The notes under the pieces are model-generated. The model had not been told where the DNA came from and ran no database searches. It saw nothing but the letters and a program-made list of their open reading frames with translations. Positions 2,086 to 32,120 of a DNA stretch of 34,168 nt are shown piece by piece (the first letter of the stretch is position 1; every line of letters begins with the position of its first letter). Made by a program: the position numbers and the translations under genes. The stretch is from Candidatus Sericytochromatia bacterium (GTDB lineage Bacteria; Cyanobacteriota; Sericytochromatia; UBA7694). Location of the stretch: positions 1-34,168 of the forward strand of contig JACYMC010000098.1 in NCBI GenBank assembly GCA_015272195.1, given 5' to 3'.

Positions 2086-3345
2086 ATGCTGAAATCATTC
2101 CTTGCGCTGAGCCTGTTGCCGGGGCCGCTGTTTGTGCCGGCCGCGCTGGCCGCTGAGACGCCCACCCCAACAGACTGGCAGCTCCTCAGCCGTGAAAGCA
2201 ATGCCGAAGCCCTGAGCGCCCTGCATCTGGCTGCTGGCTATGGCCTGCCAGAGTGGACGCGGATGCTGCTAGCCCAGGGTGCCGAGCTGCGCCTGGACGC
2301 CTCAGGCTGGAGCCCGCTGCATCTGGCCGCCCGCAATGGGCATTGCCAGACCCTTGAGCTGCTGCTCAAAGCCCACCCGCGCCTGGTCAATCAGGCTGCC
2401 CGCAACGGTCAGACCCCGCTGCAGCTGGCCGTTATGCATCACCAGACCCAGGCGGTCAGCTGCCTGCTCAAACAGGGCGCTCAACCCGATCTGGCCGATC
2501 AGCACGGCGTCACCCCCGTTTTGCAGGCCGTACTGCAGAGCCAGGATGAGATGCTGGAACACATGGCACGCAATGGCTTTGCGGTCAACAGCTGGCTCCA
2601 GCGCGCGCGGCCCGATGGCCGCTCCTGGCTGCACGTGCTGGCAGTACTGCCTGAAATGGCTGAGCCCCTGCAGCTGCTGATTCGCCGGGGAGTGCCCCTG
2701 CAAAGCCGCTTTAAAGGCCAGAGTGCGCTCTTGCTGGCCCTGGAGGCCGGCTATTTCGAAAATGTCCAGGCCCTGCTGGAAGCAGGTGATCAGGTCAACA
2801 ATGCTGAGGAAGCCGGCAGGCTGTGGCTGGCGCTTGAAAAGTACCTGCGCGAGGACGTGCTGCAAAAGCCGGCGCAGAGGGCTTTGCTGGCCCGGCTGAT
2901 TCAGACCCTGCTGCGCTACCAGGACGGCATCATTCAGTCCCCCAGAGACCAGACCTCTTTGCTGGCCCGCCGCATTCTGGAAGGAGACGTGCTGGCTGTG
3001 GATTTTTTACTGGGCTTTGGACCCGATCTGGAGGTGCGCAATGCCCGCAACCAGACCTTTCTGATGCTGGCCATTGCCGAATCGGTGCCCCAGCAAGGGG
3101 TGCTGGTAGCGCGCCTGCTGGAAGCGGGTGCGCGCACTGATATTGCAGATGAAGCCGGCAACACGCCCTTACACCTGGCGGTGAAACGGGGGCAGGCAGA
3201 TATTGTACGGCTGCTGCTGCCGCGTGTGGAGCGCCTGAGCAGCAATGCCGCAGGCCAGACCCCGCTGGATCTGGCCCGGATGCAGGGCGACGCGGAGCTG
3301 ATGGAAGAGCTGCGCCCGCTGTATATCCGTAGTCTGTTTCAGTAA
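2086..3345 (+). CDS. exported ankyrin-repeat protein
   Basis: The product has 419 residues. It begins with a signal peptide (MLKSFLALSLLPGPLFVPAALAA) and is otherwise built of ankyrin repeats, seen as SALHLAAGYGLPEWTRMLLAQGA, SPLHLAARNGHCQTLELLLKA, TPLQLAVMHHQ and near the end TPLHLAVKRGQADIVRLLL. The central repeats (about 190-300) are degenerate. Ankyrin repeats bind proteins, and export places this one in the periplasm or outside. There is no catalytic domain. The stop lies one base from the stop of the convergent endonuclease gene. A second exported ankyrin protein is encoded at 10760-12331. Confidence 0.88.
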   Translation: MLKSFLALSLLPGPLFVPAALAAETPTPTDWQLLSRESNAEALSALHLAAGYGLPEWTRMLLAQGAELRLDASGWSPLHLAARNGHCQTLELLLKAHPRLVNQAARNGQTPLQLAVMHHQTQAVSCLLKQGAQPDLADQHGVTPVLQAVLQSQDEMLEHMARNGFAVNSWLQRARPDGRSWLHVLAVLPEMAEPLQLLIRRGVPLQSRFKGQSALLLALEAGYFENVQALLEAGDQVNNAEEAGRLWLALEKYLREDVLQKPAQRALLARLIQTLLRYQDGIIQSPRDQTSLLARRILEGDVLAVDFLLGFGPDLEVRNARNQTFLMLAIAESVPQQGVLVARLLEAGARTDIADEAGNTPLHLAVKRGQADIVRLLLPRVERLSSNAAGQTPLDLARMQGDAELMEELRPLYIRSLFQ

Positions 3346-5517: not shown

Positions 5518-7494
5518 CTAACCGCGCCGGAAAGGCTTGGCGCTGGCGCCGCCGCCCTTTTTGCTGCGGGGCTTGTCGCTGAATTTGCCTTTGAACTTGC
5601 CCTTTTTTTCGAAAGGCACGCGGCGGGCAGGCGGCAGGCTGCCGGGGTCGTCCACTTTGGAGAGCTTCAGCAGGCGACCCGCCACGCGGGTGCGCTGCAG
5701 GGCACGACTGAGATGCGACTCCAGCGCTTCGGGCAGATCCACGGTGGTGAACTGCTCATAAAGCTGAATATCGCCAATATGGGCGCTGTCGAGACCGGCC
5801 TCGTTGGCGATGGCGCCCACAATCTGGCCCGGGCGCACACCGTGGGTGCGGCCCACTTCAATGCGGAAGGGCACCATTTCGACGTCAAAATTCATGCGGC
5901 GCTCACCACGCTTTTTGCCGGGCCGCTCTGCCGCTGCACCGTACTCACGGCGCTCAGTGGTTTTAAAGGCCGCTTTGGGTGGGGGCGGTGGATCTTTGGG
6001 CAGCAGCAGGGGTTTGTCACCCTGAAACAGGCAGGCCAGCGCAGCCGCCAGATCCAGCGGATCGGTGTTGCTTTCGCTCTGGTAAGCAGCAATCAGCTCG
6101 CGAAAAAAGGCGTGCTGTTTGCCTTCGAGGCCTTTGGTCAGCTGAGCTTTAAAGCGTTCAATGCGGCGGGCGTTGATCACCTCAGCGCTGGGCAGCTGCA
6201 TGGGCTCCACCGGCTGGCGGGTGACTTTTTCGATGGTTTTGAGCAGGCGCTGCTCGCGGGGACGCACCAGCAGAATGGCGTGACCACTGCGGCCGGCACG
6301 GCCCGTGCGGCCAATGCGGTGCACGTAGCTCTCGGGATCGTAGGGGATATCGTAGTTGATCACGTGGCTGATGCGCTCAACGTCGAGACCGCGGGCCGCC
6401 ACGTCGGTGGCCACCAGAATCTCGATTTTACCCTTGCGCAGCTGATCCACGGTGCGTTCACGCTGGGCCTGGGGAAAGTCGCCGTTGAGGGGTGCAACCG
6501 AGTAACCCTTGGCGTCGAGGTACTCAGCGACTTCGAGGGTGGCCTGCTTGGTGCGCACAAAGATCATCACGCCGTCGGTTTCTTCGGCTTCGAGCATGCG
6601 GCTGAGGGCTTCGTTTTTGTCGACGCCCTGCACCAGCCAGTAGCGCTGGTGAATGGTTTCGGCGGTCATGGTTTTGAGGCGGATGGTAACCTCAGCCGGA
6701 TCGTTGAGGTAGGTGTGCGCCAGGCGGCGGATTTCAGCCGGCATGGTGGCCGAAAAGAGAGCCATCTGGCGCTCTTCGGGCAGATGCTGCAGTACCCACT
6801 CCACGTCATCCACAAAGCCCATGCGCAGCATTTCGTCGGCTTCGTCCAGCACCAGGGCCTGCAGGTGCTCCAGGTTGAGGGTGCCCTTGCGCATATGGTC
6901 CATGACCCGGCCTGGTGTGCCGACCACAATCTGCACGCCGCGCGAGAGCTGCTTGAGCTGGGGTTCGTAACTCTGGCCGCCATAAATAGACGTCACGCGT
7001 ACGCCCTTGAGATCTTTGGTATAGCTTTCAAAAGATTCAGCCACCTGAATGGCCAGCTCACGGGTGGGGGCCAGCACCAGAATCTGGGGGGATTTCAGGG
7101 CCCGGTCGAGGCGGGTGATCAGGGGCAGGGCAAAGGCAGCGGTTTTGCCGGTACCGGTCTGGGCCTGGGCCAGCACGTCACGGCCTTTGAGCAGATGGGG
7201 GATGGTGGCTTGCTGTACAGCGGTAGGGCTTTCGTAGCCCTGAGCTTCTAAAGTGGGCAGCAGGCTGTCGGGCAGACCGAGCGCCACAAAGGGATGGATC
7301 GGGGGCAGGCTGTCTTCATCGTCAGCTGCTGCATCCATTTCGTCCAGCATCTCTTCATCGAGGTCTTCGTCCAGCTCGGGCCAGTCCAGGCTGTCTTCAG
7401 CAGGGGCTGCAGCAGCAGGGCTTGCGATGGGAGGGTGTTCCAGGCTTTTGATTTCTTGGGTCAGTTCAGGGGTCGGGAGCAGGGAAAGTAACAT
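5518..7494 (-). CDS. deaD: DEAD-box RNA helicase, DeaD/CsdA type
   Basis: The product has 658 residues from the ATG at 7494. It unwinds structured RNA using ATP, typically in ribosome assembly and cold adaptation. Visible motifs, in order: Q motif near 69-95, Walker A AQTGTGKT (111-118), PTRELA (143-148), TPGR (193-196), DEAD (217-220), SAT (248-250), ATDVAARGLD (362-371) and HRIGRTGRAG (392-401). Residues about 535-612 form the DbpA/CsdA RNA-binding domain, and the end is a basic Lys/Arg/Gly tail. An unusual acidic stretch (about 32-62) precedes the Q motif. No Shine-Dalgarno is seen at the ATG. A TTG at 7548 would add 18 residues but is no better placed. Confidence 0.93.
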   Translation of the reverse strand: MLLSLLPTPELTQEIKSLEHPPIASPAAAAPAEDSLDWPELDEDLDEEMLDEMDAAADDEDSLPPIHPFVALGLPDSLLPTLEAQGYESPTAVQQATIPHLLKGRDVLAQAQTGTGKTAAFALPLITRLDRALKSPQILVLAPTRELAIQVAESFESYTKDLKGVRVTSIYGGQSYEPQLKQLSRGVQIVVGTPGRVMDHMRKGTLNLEHLQALVLDEADEMLRMGFVDDVEWVLQHLPEERQMALFSATMPAEIRRLAHTYLNDPAEVTIRLKTMTAETIHQRYWLVQGVDKNEALSRMLEAEETDGVMIFVRTKQATLEVAEYLDAKGYSVAPLNGDFPQAQRERTVDQLRKGKIEILVATDVAARGLDVERISHVINYDIPYDPESYVHRIGRTGRAGRSGHAILLVRPREQRLLKTIEKVTRQPVEPMQLPSAEVINARRIERFKAQLTKGLEGKQHAFFRELIAAYQSESNTDPLDLAAALACLFQGDKPLLLPKDPPPPPKAAFKTTERREYGAAAERPGKKRGERRMNFDVEMVPFRIEVGRTHGVRPGQIVGAIANEAGLDSAHIGDIQLYEQFTTVDLPEALESHLSRALQRTRVAGRLLKLSKVDDPGSLPPARRVPFEKKGKFKGKFSDKPRSKKGGGASAKPFRRG

Positions 7495-7631
7495 AAAGGG
7501 CAATACCAATTCAATCTTAGGAAATAATGGCCTGGTGAGCGGGAGCAACGGTAGCAGATAAAAGGGATGTTAACGATGCGACAACGGATCAACAGGGGGT
7601 GTGACCTGATTTCGACGGCCACAACTTTATC

Positions 7632-7691: not shown

Positions 7692-8726
7692 CTAAAACAG
7701 GGCCCGTCCAAGGCGCTCCAGCAAACCGGGCGGCTGCTGCATATGGGCGATCACACCGGCCCAGCCGCTGCGCTGCAGACGGGTCCGCATCTGGCGGTAA
7801 CCCTCGCCATAGACCGGGCTGACGTCACTTTCGAGGCGCTGCAGCAGATAGGCCCCCAGCGGGGTGCTGTCCTGCTGAAAGATCAGGGCCGAACCCAGGT
7901 TGCAAAAGCCTTCGACTTCGACATCGCTGCGCTGATTGAGACCGCGATCATTGAGCCAGACGTGCAGCAGCTCGTGGGCCAGCACCCCGCAAAACAGCAG
8001 GCGCGGCAGGCCGTGCAGCACAAAAATACTGTGTTCGCGATACACCAGCTGGCTGTTTTCAAGCTTTTCGAGGGTTTTGGTCAGGCCCTGGCTATTGGCA
8101 TGGCGCGACACACCCAGGCGCTGGTTCAGCCGGCGCTGATCGGCCAGGGTCACGGCGATATAGCGCGGGATGTAGTCAAAGCCCACGCCGTGTAAGTATG
8201 CCAGCACCTCGGCTTTGAGCTGCTCAATCTCAGCGGGCTGGCTGACCTCTGAGATCTGGCAGAGGCCACAGAGCGTGCGGCCATCGCCAAAGCGCACCCC
8301 GCCGTTAGTCGTGCGCGCCCCGATAAAACGCCCGCAGGCATGGCACTGCTCGGTTTTGTGCCCGGCGTGGGTCGGGTGGGCGCACTGGCCCCAGGGGTCG
8401 ATCAGATATTTGCCGTTCAGAGCTTGCTCACAGAGCACGCAGCGCGGGGCAATCTCGGCATAACAGGCGTCATGGTAGGCCTGTTCCTGGCAGCGGGTAT
8501 AACTGCCGCTGATCGCCTGGCCGCAATGAGCGCAGTTCAGCGCCGTCGGCGCGGCCGGGGCCTTGCAGCGGGGATGGTAGAGGCGGTTCTGCTGCTGGCG
8601 GTACTCACCCTGAATGCGCTGGCCACAGCGGGCGCAGCAAAAACACTGGGGATGAAAGCGCCCGCTCTCAGCGCGGATATACTGCTTGCCCAGGCTGCGC
8701 CCGCAGGCACTGCAGCAGCCTGCCAT
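7692..8726 (-). CDS. LIM-domain DA1-like zinc metallopeptidase
   Basis: The product has 344 residues. The N-terminus is a canonical LIM zinc finger, with ligands C5, C8, H25, C28, C31, C34, H51 and C54. Further CxxC pairs follow (65/68, 96/99, 128/131, 153/156) with intervening histidines, as in the LIM-like region of plant DA1. The C-terminal half has a zincin motif HELLH (251-255) in the context GVLAHELLHVWL, then SDVEVEGFCN, the pattern DA1 shows after its HEMMH (probable third ligand E270 or E272). There is no signal peptide, so it should act in the cytoplasm. Its ATG overlaps the TGA of the symporter gene by one base (8726), so the two are co-translated. Substrate unknown. Confidence 0.85.
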   Translation of the reverse strand: MAGCCSACGRSLGKQYIRAESGRFHPQCFCCARCGQRIQGEYRQQQNRLYHPRCKAPAAPTALNCAHCGQAISGSYTRCQEQAYHDACYAEIAPRCVLCEQALNGKYLIDPWGQCAHPTHAGHKTEQCHACGRFIGARTTNGGVRFGDGRTLCGLCQISEVSQPAEIEQLKAEVLAYLHGVGFDYIPRYIAVTLADQRRLNQRLGVSRHANSQGLTKTLEKLENSQLVYREHSIFVLHGLPRLLFCGVLAHELLHVWLNDRGLNQRSDVEVEGFCNLGSALIFQQDSTPLGAYLLQRLESDVSPVYGEGYRQMRTRLQRSGWAGVIAHMQQPPGLLERLGRALF

Positions 8727-10054
8727 CAGGCGCCGGTCTCCGGGTCTGCCGCCGATGGCAAGGCCTCAGCTCCCCGGTCAAAACGGCTGACCACCGCCGC
8801 AGCCACCACATCACCCTGCACGTTAAGCACCGTGCGCGACATGTCCAGAATGCGATCGACACCATAAATAATGCCAATGCTCTCAGCCGGCACGCCCACC
8901 GAGACCAGAATGCTGGCCACCAGCGGCAGTGAACCACCAGGCACACCCGCCGTGCCCACACCGGCCAGAATTGCCATCAGCACCACCAGCACCTGCTGGG
9001 TCAGGCTCAGATCAATGCCAAAGCACTGGGCCAGAAAGAGCACGGTAATGCCCTCAAACAGGGCCGTGCCGTTCTGGTTGGTCGTGGCCCCGATGGTCAG
9101 CACAAAATGGGCCACCTCACGCGGTAGCTTGAGCTGTTCGACGGCCACCTGAATGGCCGTGGGCAGGGTGGCGTTGCTTGAAGACGTCGAAAAGGCCGTC
9201 AGCATCAGCGCGCGGGTGTTTTTAAAAAAGTACAGCGGCGACATGCGCGCCAGGCCCCAGAGCATCAGCGAATACACGATAAACAGCTGAATCGCCAGAG
9301 CCAGCAGCACCACGAGCACATAGCTCAGCAGCAGCTTTAAGATGCCCAGGCCCGTGCTGGCCATCAAGACAAAAAGCAGCGAGGCCACGCCAAAAGGGGC
9401 CAGGCGCATGCCAAAGCCGATCACATGCATCACCAGCTCATAGACCCCTTCTAAAAAGGCTTTGACCGGGGCCGTTTTAACCGGATCAGAGACCGAGAGG
9501 GCCAGGCCCAGAATCAGGGCAAAAAACATCACCGCCAGCAGGCCGCCGCCGCTGTAGCTGGCGTCAAAGGCCCGCACCATGTCTTCCAGCGGGTTTTTGG
9601 GCACCAGATTCACCAGCACCTCTGTCAGATGGGGCGGGTCGGCTTCGGCCAGCCGGGTCTGGACCTGCCGGGTTTCACCCGAAAAGCGCGCCAGCAAAAA
9701 GGCCCGGTCCTGCTCAGAAATCTGGCTGGCGGGCTGGAAAACATTAAAGACCAGCAGCCCGACACCCACCGAAATGGCCGAAGCAAAAAGGGTATAGGCC
9801 AGGGTTTGCAGGCCAATGCGCCCGATGCGGCTGAGATCCCCCAGTTCCGCCATGCCCAGAATCAGGGCCGACAGAATCAGGGGCATGACCATCATGAACA
9901 GCAGGCGCAAAAAGATTTGCCCCACGGGCTTGACCCACAGGATCAGGGTCTCGCTCAGCTCCGCAGGCAAGGGCAGCAGGTTGACGGCCAGGCCGGCCAG
10001 CAGGCCGACGACCATGCCAATCAAAATCTGGGTGTGCAAAGGGATGTTTTTCAT
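8726..10054 (-). CDS. dicarboxylate/amino acid:cation symporter (DAACS family)
   Basis: The 442-residue integral membrane protein belongs to the GltP/DctA family, which imports dicarboxylates or acidic amino acids with Na+ or H+. Diagnostic segments are the serine-rich hairpin STSSSNATLPTA, GATTNQNGTALFEGI, the second hairpin AGVGTAGVPGGS and the helix DRILDMSRTVLNVQGD. The last carries the Asp/Asp/Arg/Asn/Asp set used for substrate and cation binding in GltPh, including the Arg that contacts a side-chain carboxylate. The usual NMDGT is NQNGT here, so a cation-site Asp is replaced by Asn. It is the first gene of a two-gene unit with the DA1-like peptidase. Confidence 0.92.
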   Translation of the reverse strand: MKNIPLHTQILIGMVVGLLAGLAVNLLPLPAELSETLILWVKPVGQIFLRLLFMMVMPLILSALILGMAELGDLSRIGRIGLQTLAYTLFASAISVGVGLLVFNVFQPASQISEQDRAFLLARFSGETRQVQTRLAEADPPHLTEVLVNLVPKNPLEDMVRAFDASYSGGGLLAVMFFALILGLALSVSDPVKTAPVKAFLEGVYELVMHVIGFGMRLAPFGVASLLFVLMASTGLGILKLLLSYVLVVLLALAIQLFIVYSLMLWGLARMSPLYFFKNTRALMLTAFSTSSSNATLPTAIQVAVEQLKLPREVAHFVLTIGATTNQNGTALFEGITVLFLAQCFGIDLSLTQQVLVVLMAILAGVGTAGVPGGSLPLVASILVSVGVPAESIGIIYGVDRILDMSRTVLNVQGDVVAAAVVSRFDRGAEALPSAADPETGA

Positions 10055-10091: not shown

Positions 10092-10415
10092 TCAAAGAGC
10101 AAACATCTCCTGCAGACAATGACACACAGCCTCCTGCGCTGCTTTTGACAAGCTGCCAAGCTTCGTGATCAGGCGCTGCTTATCCACAGCACGTAGCTGA
10201 TCAAGCAGAATTAAACCCCGCTTATTCTGAAACGTACAGTTCACACGACAGGGGTATTCAAAGCCCTGGGTCGTCATGGGTGCCACAAGCACGGTAGACA
10301 AAGCTAACAACTCATCCGGGGATACAATGACACAGGGTCTGGTTTTGTTTATTTCGCGGCCCTGGGTAGGGTCAAGCTGAACCAGCCAGACCTGAAAGCG
10401 CTGGTGTCGTATCAT
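10092..10415 (-). CDS. mazF: MazF/PemK-family toxin endoribonuclease
   Basis: The 107-residue product matches the MazF/PemK fold. It has the N-terminal QVWLVQLDPTQGREINKTRPCVIVSPD segment, equivalent to the family's G-x-E-...-RP-V-(I/V)-S motif; a central strand TVLVAPMTTQG; and the RGLILLDQLRAVDKQRL stretch, where the family's conserved basic residue after DQ-x-R lies. Such toxins cut mRNA at short sequences when freed from the antitoxin. The start overlaps the antitoxin stop by 4 bases (ATGA), the usual coupled order antitoxin then toxin. Confidence 0.93.
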   Translation of the reverse strand: MIRHQRFQVWLVQLDPTQGREINKTRPCVIVSPDELLALSTVLVAPMTTQGFEYPCRVNCTFQNKRGLILLDQLRAVDKQRLITKLGSLSKAAQEAVCHCLQEMFAL

Positions 10416-10669
10416 TCCCAGCGCCAGTCATCTTCCGTCAGGCTCGCATCGAGCCATTCCTGATCAGGCGCTTCTGCACTACAATTTTGCAAGGTATCCT
10501 GAATCTGTTCAGCCCAACCGGCTCTGGGTTTGTTCAGGGGGCGAATGAGCAAGCCACCGCCTTTGGCGACTTCAAGGCTCAGTTCTTTGCCTTCAAGCAT
10601 GGCTTGCTCGATCAGGGGTTTAGGGATACGTATCCCTTGTGAGTTTCCGATCCGGATGAGCTGTGCCAT
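10412..10669 (-). CDS. mazE: MazE-family antitoxin (AbrB-type DNA-binding domain)
   Basis: The 85-residue product begins with the swapped-hairpin AbrB/MazE domain (IRIGNSQGIRIPKPLIEQA, then KELSLEVAKGGGLLIRPL). It ends in an acidic, aromatic tail (DQEWLDASLTEDDWRWE) of the kind that wraps over and blocks the MazF active site. The ATG at 10669 is preceded by AGGGGGT. The upstream palindrome over the -10 box is a probable site for autorepression by MazE/MazEF. Confidence 0.93.
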   Translation of the reverse strand: MAQLIRIGNSQGIRIPKPLIEQAMLEGKELSLEVAKGGGLLIRPLNKPRAGWAEQIQDTLQNCSAEAPDQEWLDASLTEDDWRWE

Positions 10670-10759: not shown

Positions 10760-12331
10760 TCAAAAGCTGAGCAACGCAGCCAGATCTTCCCGCTCATTGC
10801 GGCGGGCGATCTCAGCCGCTGTGAACCCGCGCTTGTTTTTGAGACGTTTATCAGCCCCTTTGGCCAGCAACAAGCGCAGCAGCTCCGGCCTGGCCTCGCG
10901 GTGGGTGGCGTACATCAGGGCCGTCATGCCGCCCTGGTCCTGGGCATTGACCGCCGCCCCGGCCTGCAGCAAAAAGGCCACCACGTCCTGGTGCTGGGCC
11001 AGGGCGGCTTCCATCAGCGGGGTCCGGCCCTCCGCACTGGCACTGTTGGCGCTTAAGCCTCTGGAGATCAGCATTTGCACCCACACCAGCAGGCCCCGGC
11101 GGGCGGCATGGTGCAGGACCTGCCGCCCATCTTCAGCCCGCAGCGTGATATCGGCCCCTGCTGCCAGCAGCTGGTGCATCATATCCTCCTGTTTGCTCAG
11201 GGCAGCCAGCATCAGGGCGGTTTCGCCCCTGAAATTTGTGGCGTTCGGCGCTGCCCGGTGCTGCAGCAACAAGGCCACGGCTTCTGGCAGCCCGGCTCTG
11301 ACGGCCTTCATCAGCGGGGTCTGGTCGTAAGTATCCGCCAGATTGACGTCAGCCCCGGCAGCCAGCAAAAGCCGAAGTGCTTCTATCTGCTTTTTTTCGA
11401 GGGCCGCATGCAGCGCGGTAGCGCCCTGAGCGTCAGCCTGATTGGGATCAGCGCCAGCGGCCAGCAGCAGGGCAATACTCTCAGGCTGATCAGCCCCAGC
11501 GGCCAGATGCAGGGCCGTGAGCTGGTGAATATTCTCCGACTGAACCCTGGCCCCGGCCTGCAATAAAAGACGCAGGGCTTCCACCTGGCCTTCGCCAGCG
11601 GCCGCCATCAGCGGGGTGCTGTTTTGCGCATCGGTCAGATTTACGATAGCACCGGCTGCCAGCAATTGCTGTATGACCGCCAGATGCCCTTCACGGGCGG
11701 CATAATACAGTGCGGTACCGCCAAAACCTTCTTCACGGATATTGGGATCCGCACCACGGGCCAGCAGCTGGGCGGTGATCTCGGCATCGCCACTGATGGC
11801 CGCATAAATCAGGGGCGTACGCCCATACTGACTGCGGCGGTTCACCTCTGCTCCCTGCGCCAGCAAATAGGCCGCCGTGTGACCCTGAGCAGCCTGCAGA
11901 GCCAGATGTAAAGGCGTCATGGTGTCTTTGTCGGCCTGGTGCAAATTGGCACCCCGCGCCAGCAAAGCGGCGCAGATAGCCGTTTGCCCGCCGGCAGCCG
12001 CATAAGCCAGCGCCGACTGGCCGTCTTTGTCGGGCGCATTGACATCCGCTCCCTTATCCAGCAGGGCCTGCACCAATGCGAGGTCTGACTGCATGGCGGC
12101 CCAGACCAGCAGCGGGGCTTCAAAATAGCCGTGTACCGTGGTCCAGCTGACCCGCTCAGGCAGGGTTTTACCGGCCCTGAGATCTGCGAGCACCCCGGCC
12201 GGGGTCTGTTCGCTAAAATCCATAACAGCCACCGTCGCGTTATCGGCCAGAGCTGGCCAAACCGGCAAAATCTGCCCCGTAAAGAAGCTGAGCCCACTCA
12301 CCAGCACGACACACTTTAACATTTCACGCAT
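10760..12331 (-). CDS. exported ankyrin-repeat protein
   Basis: The product has 523 residues from the ATG at 12331, which has AGAGGGG seven bases upstream. The open frame runs back to 12550, but the extra 73 residues precede the signal peptide and are not needed. The signal peptide is MREMLKCVVLVSGLSFF, more hydrophobic residues, then ALADN. The rest is about twelve regular ankyrin repeats, many with the consensus ...TPLM.A...G....V..LL.AGADVN..D. They are far more regular than those of the protein at 2086. No enzymatic domain is seen. The likely role is protein binding in the periplasm or outside. Confidence 0.9.
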   Translation of the reverse strand: MREMLKCVVLVSGLSFFTGQILPVWPALADNATVAVMDFSEQTPAGVLADLRAGKTLPERVSWTTVHGYFEAPLLVWAAMQSDLALVQALLDKGADVNAPDKDGQSALAYAAAGGQTAICAALLARGANLHQADKDTMTPLHLALQAAQGHTAAYLLAQGAEVNRRSQYGRTPLIYAAISGDAEITAQLLARGADPNIREEGFGGTALYYAAREGHLAVIQQLLAAGAIVNLTDAQNSTPLMAAAGEGQVEALRLLLQAGARVQSENIHQLTALHLAAGADQPESIALLLAAGADPNQADAQGATALHAALEKKQIEALRLLLAAGADVNLADTYDQTPLMKAVRAGLPEAVALLLQHRAAPNATNFRGETALMLAALSKQEDMMHQLLAAGADITLRAEDGRQVLHHAARRGLLVWVQMLISRGLSANSASAEGRTPLMEAALAQHQDVVAFLLQAGAAVNAQDQGGMTALMYATHREARPELLRLLLAKGADKRLKNKRGFTAAEIARRNEREDLAALLSF

Positions 12332-12466
12332 CAGATATCCCCTCTTTGCTTTGACTGAATCTGAGCCAAACCCCTTCGGCCACAGCCGCTCGGTTTGCAT
12401 CAGGTCTTTCGTTTTTTTTACAAGGATTTTAGTCAGTGTATCTGCAATCCCCTGACCTTGCCACCC

Positions 12467-12495
12467 TTGCCTGCGCGGCCAAAGCGGGCTAAAAT
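12467..12495 (+). promoter_or_regulatory. promoter of the aldehyde dehydrogenase operon
   Basis: TTGCCT (12467-12472), 17 bp, TAAAAT (12490-12495). The -10 sits in the context GGGCTAAAATCCCTT, which is repeated at the GMC gene promoter. Confidence 0.7.
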
Positions 12496-12527
12496 CCCTT
12501 TCAATACGCCCCCTGCAGGAGAACAGC

Positions 12528-14063
12528 ATGCCTGGCCTGACGGTCACCAACCCCCTTACTGGCGCCCCGCTTTACAGCCTCGACGAACCGGGGCCTGAAG
12601 CCCTGGCACAGATCTGGGCCCAGGCCCGGCAGGCCCAGGCCCAAATGCCCGCCCTGCGCGAGCGGGTGGCCGCCGTGACCCGCCTGCAACATCTGATCAC
12701 AGAGCGGCAGGAGGCCATTGTGGATCGCATTGTGGCCGAAACGGGCAAAAGCCGCTTTGACGCCCTCAGCTCAGAGATCTTTGGCAGCCTCGATGCCTGT
12801 GAGTACCTGGCCCGGCAGGCCCCCAAACAACTGGCAGATGAAAAGGTTCACACCCCGCTGGCGCTGCTGGGCAAAAAGTCCCGGCTCTGGCACGAGCCCC
12901 TGGGCACGGTGCTGGTGATTGCGCCCTGGAACTACCCTTTTTACCAGTTGCTGGTCCCTGCTCTGAGCGCTTTTTTAGCTGGCAACGCCGTGCTGCTGAA
13001 ACCCTCTGAACTCACGCCGCTCAAAGGCCTGCTCGAAGAACTGCTGCGTGCGGCGGGCTTCCCGGCACAGGCCCTGCAGCTGGTCTATGGCGGCAAGGCC
13101 ACGGGCCAGGCCCTGGTAGAGGCCGGGCCCGATCTGATCTTTTTTACGGGCAGCGTGGCCAGCGGGCAAAAAATCATGCAGGCGGCAGCCCATAAACTGA
13201 CGCCGGTGATTCTGGAACTGGGCGGCAAAGACCCCATGCTGGTCTTTGAGGACGTCAATCTGGAACGCACGGTCAATGGCGCCCTCTGGGGCGGTCTGAC
13301 CACCGCCGGGCAGTCCTGCACCTCCGTGGAGCGTCTTTATGTGCACCAGAATATTTACGCGGCGTTTGTCGACCTGCTGCAGGCCAAAATGCAGCAGCTG
13401 CGCAGCGTGGCCACCCACGGCGAGCCGGCTGAGATCGGCAATATGACCGCCCCCTTTCAGCTGCAGACCATCGAGAGCCAGCTGGCCGAGGCCGTGCAGG
13501 CCGGGGCCCGCATTCTCTGCGGCGGCGCGCGTGAACCTGGCAGCCTGTACTTTCCACCGACCCTGGTGGTCGACGTCACGCACAGCATGGCGCTGATGCG
13601 CGAAGAAACCTTTGGCCCCGTGCTGGCGGTGATGCCCTTTGCCGACGAGGCCGAAGCGATTGCCCTGGCCAACGACTCATCCTACGGCCTCAGCGCCAGC
13701 GTCTGGAGCGCCGATTTGCAGCGGGCCGAGCGCGTGGCGCGCCAGCTGCGCGTGGGCAATGTCTCGATCAACAACGTGATGCTGACCGAGGCCAACCCGG
13801 CCCTGCCCTTTGGCGGCCGCAAAGCCAGCGGTTTTGGCAGCTACAAAGGCCCGCGCCCGCTGGAGAGCTTCTGCAGCCGCAAAGCCGTACTGATCGACAG
13901 CCAGAGCGGCAAAATCGAGGCCAACTGGTACCCGTACACCACCGCGCGCTACCAGCTCTTCAGCCAGCTGGTGCAAAGCCTGTTTTCGGCCCGGCACTCT
14001 TTGCTGAAGATGCTGCGTACCGGCCTGCGCCTGGAAAGCCAGGCCCAGAAGGAGAAATTCTGA
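12528..14063 (+). CDS. NAD(P)-dependent aldehyde dehydrogenase, fatty-aldehyde-like
   Basis: This 511-residue ALDH-superfamily enzyme oxidises an aldehyde to the acid. Key residues: N135 in APWNYPF, K158 in LLKPSE, the GSVASG cofactor loop (208-213), general base E230 in LELGGKDP and nucleophile C264 in AGQSCTS. The C-terminus extends beyond the usual end (PFGGRKASGFGSYKG) by about 70 residues that include hydrophobic/aromatic stretches, reminiscent of the tail of membrane-associated fatty aldehyde dehydrogenases. AGGAG lies 6 bases before the ATG. It is the first gene of a run of plus-strand genes that includes an alcohol oxidase-like GMC enzyme and an acyl-CoA synthetase, which suits a long-chain aldehyde as substrate. 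Confidence 0.9.
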   Translation: MPGLTVTNPLTGAPLYSLDEPGPEALAQIWAQARQAQAQMPALRERVAAVTRLQHLITERQEAIVDRIVAETGKSRFDALSSEIFGSLDACEYLARQAPKQLADEKVHTPLALLGKKSRLWHEPLGTVLVIAPWNYPFYQLLVPALSAFLAGNAVLLKPSELTPLKGLLEELLRAAGFPAQALQLVYGGKATGQALVEAGPDLIFFTGSVASGQKIMQAAAHKLTPVILELGGKDPMLVFEDVNLERTVNGALWGGLTTAGQSCTSVERLYVHQNIYAAFVDLLQAKMQQLRSVATHGEPAEIGNMTAPFQLQTIESQLAEAVQAGARILCGGAREPGSLYFPPTLVVDVTHSMALMREETFGPVLAVMPFADEAEAIALANDSSYGLSASVWSADLQRAERVARQLRVGNVSINNVMLTEANPALPFGGRKASGFGSYKGPRPLESFCSRKAVLIDSQSGKIEANWYPYTTARYQLFSQLVQSLFSARHSLLKMLRTGLRLESQAQKEKF

Positions 14064-26423: not shown

Positions 26424-27971
26424 TCAGGCCTTTTGACCCTTCAGGGCAAAGACCGGAATAATACCGCCCCCCGCGCTGACGTTGATCACCTTGGATTCAG
26501 AGATACGTCCCAGGCATCCGGCATACTCGCCGTTAAAAACGTAGGGGTTCAGGTTGAGGTTTTTCTTTTCGAGACGCACCTGGCTGTCGCGGATCACCGG
26601 AAACTCATATTCAGGAATCTCGACAGCCTCCTGCACAATCCACCAGGGGCAGCCCATGGCCGACTCTACCGCGCTCTGCCATTTGCCTTTGTCGGTAAAT
26701 TTACCCACATAGACCTCATAGCCCCCGGCGGCCCAGGTGGGCTTGAGCACCAGATCTTCCTGGTGCTTGATTACATAGTCCTGCAGCGAGACGTCCCGAC
26801 CATCAGCAGACAGGGTAATGGTTTCGTCCATTTTGCGGGTCCAGGGAATATGGTCTTTGATGCACTGGGCTTCGGCGTCGGTAAAATAATGATGATTTTC
26901 TTCGTTGCTCAGAAAGGAGAGCATTTCTTTCTGGGAACCCAGGGTGGCCCGGAAGTGGTTAACCTGGCAGACCGCGTTATCGCGCAGGGCGTTTAAAAAG
27001 TCCTGCATTTCACGCGGAAAGCGCTTAAAAAAGGTAAAGCGCAGGCACATGTTGACGATATCAAAGGCCACGTTACCGGAGTAGAGTTTGCCGTTGCGGT
27101 ACTCAAAATCCCGCGGATCAATACAGTTGGCCTCAATGCCGTGTTCAATCAGATAGTCGCGCACAATTTCGTTGTCGGAGCCGGGCAGATACTCCTTGAG
27201 CGAAACCAGGGCCACGCGGGGTTTGGCTTTGCTGCCCCCCCACTCGCGGTAGCAGGCCAGCAGGGACTCTTTAAGCGCGTGCAGCATGGGGCGGTCTTTG
27301 ATCTGGCAATAATCGGCAATCAGATCTTTGTAAATTGGGGAGTGAATCAGCAGGTCCTCATAGGTATCAACCCAGCCCCGGCCGCCGGGGTTATCGGTAT
27401 TGAACTCAATAAACTTGAGGTTTTTGCCGTCAAACAGGGCGTCATGGCGGTTGAGGACGGTGGGCTTGCTGTACTTGGGATCCCAGTTGATCCATTCCAG
27501 CGGGATATCGGGGTAAGGAAAATAGCTTTTGACATAGTCATCTTTGAAGTAAAGGTGAATCGCCTTATCCAGAATGCGGTCCAGTTCCACGGCCACACGG
27601 GCAATGCGATCCACCGAACTCTCTTTTAAAAACATCGGGGCCAGCGTCACCGGCAGAATGCCGCCATCGCCATAGCTGCAGCGGCGCTTGATCAATTGCT
27701 GCATAAACTGCTGGCGGTGTTTGATCACCTCTTTGGGGTGGGCAATCATCCAGTCGGTCACGGCGGTTTCAGCCGCTGTAAAAGACTGCTCGATATCAGC
27801 AGCCGTACGCTGAGCCTGGGCTTTGGCAGGGGCTGTTTTTTTGGATGGCGCCGCTTTGGGGGTTTTGGCCGCTGCCTTTGGGGCTTTGGCCGCTGCCTTT
27901 GGGGCTTTGGCTACCGCTTTTTTTTCGGCGGCAGTGGAGACTTTGCTGGAAGCGGATGCTTTCTTTGCCAT
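26424..27971 (-). CDS. ATP-grasp-like enzyme with histone-H1-like N-terminal tail
   Basis: The 515-residue product has two parts. Residues 1 to about 55 are a Lys/Ala/Pro-rich tail with three heptads of the KAPKAAA type, like histone H1 or bacterial H1-like proteins. The remainder looks like a glutathionylspermidine-synthase/circularly permuted ATP-grasp protein: FIEFNTDNPGGRGW, PRVALVSLKEYLPGSDNEI, DLVLKPTWAAGGYEVYVGK (probable ATP-binding Lys and glycine loop), WIVQEAVEIPEY and a C-terminal NVSAGGGIIPVFAL. It should ligate a carboxylate to an amine or thiol; the substrates are unknown. It is the first gene of an operon with icd. AGGAG lies 15 bases before the ATG, rather far. Confidence 0.75.
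   Translation of the reverse strand: MAKKASASSKVSTAAEKKAVAKAPKAAAKAPKAAAKTPKAAPSKKTAPAKAQAQRTAADIEQSFTAAETAVTDWMIAHPKEVIKHRQQFMQQLIKRRCSYGDGGILPVTLAPMFLKESSVDRIARVAVELDRILDKAIHLYFKDDYVKSYFPYPDIPLEWINWDPKYSKPTVLNRHDALFDGKNLKFIEFNTDNPGGRGWVDTYEDLLIHSPIYKDLIADYCQIKDRPMLHALKESLLACYREWGGSKAKPRVALVSLKEYLPGSDNEIVRDYLIEHGIEANCIDPRDFEYRNGKLYSGNVAFDIVNMCLRFTFFKRFPREMQDFLNALRDNAVCQVNHFRATLGSQKEMLSFLSNEENHHYFTDAEAQCIKDHIPWTRKMDETITLSADGRDVSLQDYVIKHQEDLVLKPTWAAGGYEVYVGKFTDKGKWQSAVESAMGCPWWIVQEAVEIPEYEFPVIRDSQVRLEKKNLNLNPYVFNGEYAGCLGRISESKVINVSAGGGIIPVFALKGQKA
27861..27923. repeat. 21-bp tandem repeats inside the H1-like tail
   Basis: Three consecutive 21-bp units (27861-27881, 27882-27902, 27903-27923). 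The first two differ at one base and the third diverges in its second half. Each encodes one heptad of the KAPKAAA type. The near identity suggests recent slippage or unit duplication. Confidence 0.8.
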
Positions 27972-29688: not shown

Positions 29689-30378
29689 ATGTCCGAACGT
29701 CTGCGGGACCTGATCCCCGCCCCCTGGCGCGCGCTCTGGGACACCCCGGCCCTGGAGCCCCACTGGGCAAAGCTGGAAGCCTTTTTAGACGCTGAATACG
29801 CCAGCCAGACCGTTTACCCGCCCCGCAAGGATCTGTTTCAGGCCCTGCAGCCCTGCCCGCCAGAGGCCGTGCGGGTGCTGATTCTGGGCCAGGACCCCTA
29901 CCACCAGCCGGGCCAGGCCCACGGCCTGAGCTTCTCGGTGCCGCCGGGCCAGAAGCTGCCGCCCAGCCTGCGCAATATATTTACGGAGCTGCAGAGCGAT
30001 CTCGGCTGTGCCGCGCCGGCCAGCGGCAGCCTGCTGCCCTGGGCCCGGCAGGGCGTGCTGCTGCTCAATACGGTGATGAGCGTGCGCGCCGGTCAGGCAG
30101 GCTCCCATGCTGGCCAAGGCTGGGAACCTTTAAGCGACGCCCTGATTGCGGGTCTGAGTACACAAAGCAAACATCTGGTCTGCCTGCTCTGGGGCCGCTG
30201 GGCCCAGGCCAAAGCGCCGTTGATTGATCCACGGCACACGATCCTGCAGGGGCCACACCCTTCACCGCTCTCGGCCTACCGGGGCTTTTTTGGCTCGCGG
30301 CCCTTTTCGCAGATCAACGCCGCGCTGCAGGCCCACGGCCAGCCCGCCATTGACTGGGCCCTGCCCGCTCACAGCTGA
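29689..30378 (+). CDS. ung: uracil-DNA glycosylase, family 1
   Basis: The 229-residue product removes uracil from DNA as the first step of base excision repair. The catalytic GQDPYH (67-72, D69) is intact. LNTVMSVRAGQAGSH, which has A-G-x-A-x-S-H in place of the usual A-H-S-H, and the minor-groove loop HPSPLSAYRGFFGSRPFS (H190) follow in the expected places. It is probably co-transcribed with nadK. Its 3' end overlaps the convergent gene by 10 bases. Confidence 0.95.
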   Translation: MSERLRDLIPAPWRALWDTPALEPHWAKLEAFLDAEYASQTVYPPRKDLFQALQPCPPEAVRVLILGQDPYHQPGQAHGLSFSVPPGQKLPPSLRNIFTELQSDLGCAAPASGSLLPWARQGVLLLNTVMSVRAGQAGSHAGQGWEPLSDALIAGLSTQSKHLVCLLWGRWAQAKAPLIDPRHTILQGPHPSPLSAYRGFFGSRPFSQINAALQAHGQPAIDWALPAHS

Positions 30379-32120
30379 TAATTCAGAAACAGCCCAAACA
30401 CCGGCCCGGAAGCCGCCAGACCATAACACAGATCACTGTCACCCGCGCTGCTGCGCCAGCGGGTGCCGGCAGCAGGGTACTCGCGCCAGCCCAGATCCAG
30501 CCCCAGAATCAGATCGGGGTTGAGCTGCAGGGCCGCCCCGGCAAAAGGCGTGCCCCCCAGGGTACTCTGGCTGAGGGTGCTGGGCCCGTCTGACTGCACG
30601 CCGTTCATAAAGCCCAGGCGCAGCCCCACAGCCAGCATCAGCTGGCGAAAATAAAAGCGTTTACTGAGGCCCAGCTCGCCGGTCAGCGCGGACACATTGG
30701 CCGGTGGGGCCCTACCCCGCACACCCGGCCAGCCCACCATGCCATAGGCCCCATTGAGTCCCAGGTAAGTTTCTGACCAGCCCAGTGCCTGGGCCAGACT
30801 GTAATAGAGCGTGCCCGAAAACTCCGGGGCCGTGTCGGCATAAATGCCGCTGCGGGGTCCCAGCAGTGCCAGAGAACCCGTGCCGCCGCGCAGGCGCAGT
30901 TCAAAGGGTGTTTTGGGGTATTCCAGATGCTGATCACCCGGCTCAAAGGGGCGCGCCGCCAGAATGGTCTGTACAGAAAACTGCTGTTCTTCAAGGGCGC
31001 GCACTTTGGTAAAGCCAATCTCAACGGGTTGCATGCCCTCCGGGGTCTGGCGGTACTCGATAATGCGATAGCCCGCATCCAGATGAATGCCCAGACTGCT
31101 CACGCTTTCGCTCTCAGACAGGCTCAGCTGGCTCAGATCGCTCTGGGGGTCAAATGCGCTGACCTGGCCTTTAAGCTGAAACTCCGGGGTTTTGCGAATC
31201 TCAGCCAGCAGGTTCTGGAGTTTGTACAGCGCGCTGACCCCTTCCAGAAAGGCGCCGCTCTGCTTCAGACCGTCCGGGTGCAGCAGGTTCAGGCTGCCGC
31301 TCAGGCCCAGAACCAAAGCCTGATCTGAGAGTTTGGCCATTTTTTCGGGCGACGACAGCTCCAGTTCCAGCACCTTGCGGGCGGTATCCTGCAGATAGCG
31401 CGCCGGGTCCTGGCTTTCAAGGGCGGGCAGCAGCTGGTCAAAAGGCGGCAGCCGGCGCAGAGTCGTTAAAAAAGCAGCGGTGTCCTCAGGTGCTGGGCTG
31501 GCGCCCAGTTCATCCTGCATGCGCTGGCGCAGCAGGGGCATATCCATGCGCAGCAGTTTGACAATCTGCCAGTTTTCCTGAAACGCGGTCAGGGCTTGCG
31601 GCTGGTCTTCGCGGACTTTGTACAGGGGCAAATCCAGGCTAAAACGGCTTTTGAGCACCAGATACCAACCCTGGCCCTCAGTCTGGCCACTGTACTCCGG
31701 GCCGCTGATCTCAAGGGGTGAAAAAGCCCAGCGGGGCGCAAAGACATAGGCTGAATCCAGCACCTGCCGGGTCTGGCTCCAGGTGACCACCCGCTCGCCA
31801 AAGCGCAGATCTTCGGGGGTCTGACCCGCCGCCAGCAGACCGGCCTGCTCACTTTGATACTGCCGGGCCCGCGCCAGAAAATCAGGCAGGCTGCCCTCAC
31901 TCAGAATCAGGGGGTAATCAAAGCGCGGCAGCTCGCGCTGAAAAAAGCGCACCAGAAAAGCATCCAGTTGACTCTGCTGCGCCTGATAAAACGAAATATA
32001 GCGGGGCTGATAGGTTTCCAGTGCGGGGGGCTGCTCAGCAACTGCCGGGGCAGCGGCTGCCTGACCCCGCACCAGCAAAAGGCTCAGACAGCCGGCAGCC
32101 ATGATCTTAAGAAGTTTCAT
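30369..32120 (-). CDS. exported protein of unknown function, possible outer-membrane barrel at the C-terminus
   Basis: The 583-residue product has a signal peptide (MKLLKIMAAGCLSLLLV...AAA). Its first 350 residues are mainly helical with no recognised motif. From about 330 the sequence alternates in beta-strand fashion (VSSLGIHLDAGYRIIEYRQ, FELRLRGGTGSLALLG, LGLSKRFYFRQLMLAVGLRLGF, LILGLDLGWREYP). It ends in FGLFLNYQL, like the closing strand of an outer-membrane beta-barrel. I do not recognise the family. The start codon is 9 bases after a TATACT box, so the leader would be only a few bases. Confidence 0.8.
   Translation of the reverse strand: MKLLKIMAAGCLSLLLVRGQAAAAPAVAEQPPALETYQPRYISFYQAQQSQLDAFLVRFFQRELPRFDYPLILSEGSLPDFLARARQYQSEQAGLLAAGQTPEDLRFGERVVTWSQTRQVLDSAYVFAPRWAFSPLEISGPEYSGQTEGQGWYLVLKSRFSLDLPLYKVREDQPQALTAFQENWQIVKLLRMDMPLLRQRMQDELGASPAPEDTAAFLTTLRRLPPFDQLLPALESQDPARYLQDTARKVLELELSSPEKMAKLSDQALVLGLSGSLNLLHPDGLKQSGAFLEGVSALYKLQNLLAEIRKTPEFQLKGQVSAFDPQSDLSQLSLSESESVSSLGIHLDAGYRIIEYRQTPEGMQPVEIGFTKVRALEEQQFSVQTILAARPFEPGDQHLEYPKTPFELRLRGGTGSLALLGPRSGIYADTAPEFSGTLYYSLAQALGWSETYLGLNGAYGMVGWPGVRGRAPPANVSALTGELGLSKRFYFRQLMLAVGLRLGFMNGVQSDGPSTLSQSTLGGTPFAGAALQLNPDLILGLDLGWREYPAAGTRWRSSAGDSDLCYGLAASGPVFGLFLNYQL

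Follow-up and report, generated by a model that had tools for sequence, protein, structure and literature searches.

Among the closest described relatives of the protein reported here are the plant DA1/DAR proteins (Arabidopsis DA1; Pfam PF12315). Plant DA1, an organ-size protease, cleaves proteins by means of a HEMMH motif, and the cysteine C274 in its LIM-like region is required for activity (PMC5322733). Bacterial members of the family have been published as well. The plant LIM-like region is highly similar to predicted proteins from Roseiflexus (Dong 2017, PMC5322733), in a remark that, as given there, cites Burroughs et al. 2011 on prokaryotic treble-clef domains. A substrate or an activity was found in the literature for none of the bacterial members.

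The window, the whole stretch of 34,168 nucleotides that was analyzed, is an entire contig of a 4.17 Mb genome of a Candidatus Sericytochromatia bacterium, a relative of the cyanobacteria. It contains an open reading frame whose protein product, P0001, was assigned the following features from its translation, Pfam, AlphaFold2 models and the alignment of relatives.

7692 to 8726, minus strand: gene for P0001 (344 residues), a predicted LIM/DA1-like zinc metallopeptidase
8565 to 8714, minus strand: complete eight-ligand LIM domain, fingers 1 and 2 (PF00412; solved LIM domains by profile and fold)
8463 to 8534, minus strand: third half-LIM finger (sequence; alignment of relatives)
8259 to 8441, minus strand: LIM-like module (conserved ligands)
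7695 to 8258, minus strand: DA1-like peptidase domain, residues 157–344 (PF12315; domain model)
7962 to 7976, minus strand: HELLH zinc-binding and catalytic motif, H251, E252 and H255
7911 to 7913, minus strand: E272, probable third zinc ligand
7794 to 7811, minus strand: conserved YGxGxR motif, Y306 to R311

P0001 matches the Pfam DA1-like family PF12315 with 57.3 bits (E 1.9e-15; cut-off 25 bits) and the LIM family PF00412 with 36.9 bits over residues 5–50 (E 4.5e-9; cut-off 22.9 bits). The ligands of the LIM domain, as read from the sequence, are C5/C8-H25/C28 for finger 1 and C31/C34-H51/C54 for finger 2. Beyond this domain there are three more zinc-finger units. The third half-LIM finger is formed by C65/C68-H85/C88, and the LIM-like module, which abuts the peptidase domain without a gap, by C96/C99-H117/H120 and C128/C131-C153/C156. 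The first-pass annotation of this DNA had described a perfect eight-ligand LIM finger, more zinc-finger pairs and a HELLH motif with its glutamate at position 252. All of these are present in the translation, and the numbering is correct (H251-E252-L-L-H255). The protein starts directly with the LIM domain, and a signal peptide was not seen, which suggests that P0001 is probably cytosolic. Many of its relatives, unlike P0001, begin with a hydrophobic stretch that resembles a signal peptide.

The AlphaFold2 model of the whole protein has a pLDDT of 93.2 and a pTM of 0.78, and that of the peptidase domain alone has a pLDDT of 95.1 and a pTM of 0.90. In the confident peptidase-domain model the HExxH motif sits in a long helix; for the LIM part, both profile and fold match LIM domains of solved structure. 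The predicted fold agrees with the family models and bears out the earlier proposal of a LIM domain joined to a peptidase domain. Searches of the Protein Data Bank by sequence and by fold returned significant matches for LIM domains only, and they revealed no solved structure of a DA1-like catalytic domain. The best match of the peptidase domain is weak (E 0.13). Second among these weak matches is 1oz9 (Aquifex AQ_1354), and ACE2 entries account for several of those that follow (all with E > 0.1); we take both to be HExxH metalloenzymes. A zincin fold is likely for the catalytic domain on the basis of the model. Because this domain has no significant match among solved structures, the zinc-peptidase activity that we infer for P0001 rests on motif, family and prediction.

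Residue conservation was counted over 76 aligned relatives of P0001. Four cysteines of the LIM-like module (C128, C131, C153 and C156) and E272 are identical in all 76, C96 is kept in 74 and C99 in 73, and position 117 (His or Cys) and H120 have a few exceptions at most. The YGxGxR motif is also well kept (Tyr in 75, G307 and G309 in 74 each, and Arg in 68). The HExxH motif occurs in 76 of 76, a count that is partly circular, as most loci were fetched with a HELxH-type pattern; it is also kept in all 18 members that were found by the Pfam family search without that pattern. Among 18 aligned relatives compared with Pfam, the DA1-like domain scores above cut-off in all and the LIM domain in 16. 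With these four LIM-like cysteines, C128, C131, C153 and C156, and E272 invariant throughout the alignment, the pattern of ligand conservation in these sequences is far beyond chance.

P0001 and the plant DA1/DAR proteins share a LIM domain, a LIM-like module and a HExxH peptidase domain in the same order, and by position and order the LIM-like module of P0001 corresponds to the LIM-like motif of plant DA1 (PMC5322733). In both, the glutamate that would serve as third ligand lies 17 residues past the histidine that ends HExxH, and the motif is of the clan MA type. In P0001 this residue is E272, within an EG pair, and it corresponds to the second Glu of the plant motif HEMMHX15EE (PMC5322733). 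The differences are that P0001 is bacterial, that it has an extra half-LIM finger and that it lacks ubiquitin-interacting motifs. No Pfam match to such a motif was obtained in P0001, and there is no room for one at the N terminus because finger 1 begins at residue 5. Activation driven by ubiquitin, as in DA1, is therefore not expected. The first-pass annotation had seen the plant DA1 arrangement reproduced in a bacterium; this holds for the order of LIM, LIM-like and peptidase domains, which Pfam and the predicted fold both support, and fails for the ubiquitin-interacting motifs. The Roseiflexus homologue, to the extent that it is described in PMC5322733 with reference to Burroughs et al. 2011, resembles P0001 in its paired CxxC/H motifs and its DA1-like similarity but comes from a different lineage.

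A scan of genome contigs with a single-sequence query found no DA1-like relatives, and an alignment query was needed. With the latter, a scan of named genomes yielded 72 wider DA1-like loci. According to the tree labels, the relatives belong to 13 named bacterial phylum-level groups, among them Zixiibacteriota, Ignavibacteriota, Bacteroidota, Chloroflexota, Calditrichota and Gemmatimonadota. P0001 is a genuine member of the LIM/DA1-like peptidases, a known family that is widespread among bacteria. In view of the published members (PMC5322733) and of the many bacterial phyla, the surprise expressed at first over a LIM/DA1 protein in a bacterium was overstated. The number of N-terminal fingers differs among family members. 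Short DA1-like proteins from gut Bacteroidales (Alistipes, Rikenellaceae and others; loci L114, L119, L123, L125–L127 and L131–L133) have one LIM-like module each. A gene neighborhood with dUTPase-like and TPR-like genes recurs around these genes and in no other group, and it is the only conserved context seen.

Closer to the window, 14 of the 18 genomes of the same class carry PF12315, whereas it was found in none of the 368 genomes sampled from elsewhere in the phylum. Each of five genomes of the same family carries two DA1-like paralogues, a copy of the window type and a long-tailed copy. In the genome of the window the latter (L004:3250-4602, contig C240) is 41% identical to P0001 and has the same fingers and the HELLH motif. 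It differs from P0001 by a long low-complexity C-terminal tail and falls, in all five genomes, into a separate clade. The tails of the long-tailed copies (L004:3250-4602, L035, L036, L037 and L038) are rich in Pro, Ala and Lys and have an LGKxK-like end. Nine sequences of the family, comprising both paralogue types, form one clade in the tree (support 100/99), which groups with Bacteroidota, Verrucomicrobiota, Myxococcota and one proteobacterium and not with the rest of the class. This position may reflect transfer or deep paralogy, with the proviso that binned genomes can mislead. Two orthologues of the window type (L030:6667-7845 and L033:6331-7482) have one additional half-LIM finger (CxxC...HxxC) that is absent from P0001. 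This difference suggests that half-LIM fingers are gained or lost as units.

Taken together, P0001 is likely to be a LIM/DA1-like zinc metalloendopeptidase that acts on its own in the cytosol, with an N-terminal LIM adaptor and a catalytic zinc domain, and with the adjacent transporter gene as an incidental neighbor. The catalytic zinc would be held by H251, H255 and E272, and E252 would activate the water. The tandem N-terminal LIM fingers are probably a protein-binding adaptor that would deliver the substrate to the C-terminal domain; the substrate class of P0001 is likewise a prediction. The invariant LIM-like module before the peptidase domain probably has a structural or gating function in the enzyme, as plant DA1 depends on the matching module for its activity. 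This division, in which LIM-like module and peptidase domain would make up the enzyme and the N-terminal fingers would bind the substrate, is drawn by analogy with plant DA1. Such an enzyme would work without ubiquitin-interacting motifs. Extended to the family, the proposal becomes tentative, and we regard it as possible rather than probable. Bacterial LIM/DA1-like proteins would then be ubiquitin-free, LIM-gated proteases in which the invariant LIM-like module and the peptidase domain act as one catalytic unit and half-LIM fingers, in varying number ahead of this unit, pick the substrates. The lineage of the window would keep two paralogues that differ in adaptor and tail, and this mode of action would be ancestral to that of plant DA1.

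Alternatively, the HExxH domain could have ceased to be a protease, leaving the protein as a LIM scaffold only. The window copy does have a long terminal branch in the tree (0.37, compared with 0.10 in its closest orthologue), and it is without one half-finger found in two family members; against this, every catalytic residue and the YGxGxR motif are intact, and loss of activity appears unlikely. No match was obtained with PADLOC, and a role in defense was set aside; carriage on mobile elements was likewise discarded, there being no match in plasmids or phages.

The gene that immediately precedes the peptidase gene encodes a transporter, P0002, and the two overlap.

8726 to 10054, minus strand: gene for P0002 (442 residues), an SDF/DAACS (GltP-like) transporter (PF00375)
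8724 to 8728, minus strand: TGATG, the transporter stop and the peptidase start

P0002 matches PF00375 over its full length (365 bits, profile positions 1–386 of 387). It is nearest to the GltP glutamate/aspartate model, below the cut-off of that model, and is an ordinary member of the SDF/DAACS transporters, a family without a conserved link to DA1-like genes. The 1-base overlap with a carboxylate transporter gene, reported by the first-pass annotation, is real: the stop codon TGA (8728-8726) and the start codon ATG (8726-8724) have one base in common. Overlaps of 1 or 4 bases occur in 11 of 65 same-strand neighbor pairs (17%) in eight stretches, which makes the one in the window a common type and nothing special. 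In this genome transporter and peptidase may be carried on one mRNA, and the overlap suggests translational coupling here.

The same overlap had been taken as a sign of joint function, for example in transporter turnover. In this reading the two genes would be a functional pair with coupled translation, and the protease would trim or degrade the transporter to control uptake. The genes do share a strand and the one-base stop/start overlap, and no promoter-like site was detected between them, but the same scan was negative for the entire region. In related genomes, however, the arrangement is not seen. Orthologues of P0002 (66–67% identical) in three genomes of the same family lie on contigs other than those of the DA1 genes (C9 and C65 in G001; C1107 and C896/C908 in G003; C18 and C1/C8/C49 in G004), and the fourth, G002, has no transporter match. 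The transporter is followed in G001 by another gene with a short overlap (L062 ORFs 5979-7292 and 7289-7570), in G004 by an unrelated gene and in G003 by a gene on the opposite strand. Absence of the gene pair from all relatives had been named beforehand as a result that would refute the proposal, and for the pairing this was the outcome, with no instance in the four other family genomes, in any other member of the class or at any of the 72 wider loci. A transporter query detected no SDF gene in the flanks retrieved for about 90 DA1 loci, those of the class and the 72 wider ones (flanks of up to about 6–8 kb, some contigs being short), and a partnership with the transporter was rejected on this result. 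The reverse search around five transporter orthologues found no DA1 gene. Few of the genes that flank DA1 members (9 of 148, P0002 included) seem to encode multi-span membrane proteins. The neighbors of the other DA1 family members vary from genome to genome, and a search for recurrent neighbors turned up nothing that would account for the gene in the window. A functional pair is thus very improbable, and the transporter is most likely an incidental upstream neighbor of the peptidase gene.

Least probable of all is a role of P0001 in a bacterial ubiquitin-like conjugation pathway, for which the activation of plant DA1 by ubiquitylation (PMC5322733) would be the precedent: P0001 has no region for ubiquitin-interacting motifs, and no E1, E2, RING or Ubl domain was found among the window proteins scanned against Pfam.

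Several other genes were observed in the window. Upstream of the transporter gene and on the same strand is a MazF/PemK-like toxin gene (10092-10415, minus strand), preceded with a 4-base overlap by an ORF of 85 residues (10412-10669, minus strand) that resembles a MazE-type antitoxin. As 37 bases separate the end of this pair from the start of the transporter gene, a four-gene transcript of toxin/antitoxin-like pair, transporter and peptidase is possible. Two long ankyrin-repeat proteins are encoded near the locus (2086-3345, plus strand; 10760-12550, minus strand), the second with about 13 repeats. Two further ORFs, 26424-27971 (515 residues) and 30369-32120 (583 residues), both on the minus strand, have no Pfam match at E 0.001.

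The window adds a further member to the LIM/DA1-like family, not a new kind of protein. The distribution of PF12315, in 14 of the 18 class genomes but in none of the 368 sampled elsewhere in the phylum, argues against an arrival of DA1 in plants together with the chloroplast, the tree being one of bacterial sequences only. Because the ubiquitin switch of plant DA1 is absent from the bacterial proteins, they offer a simple test of what the LIM modules do for the peptidase, and they could account for the ground state of plant DA1.
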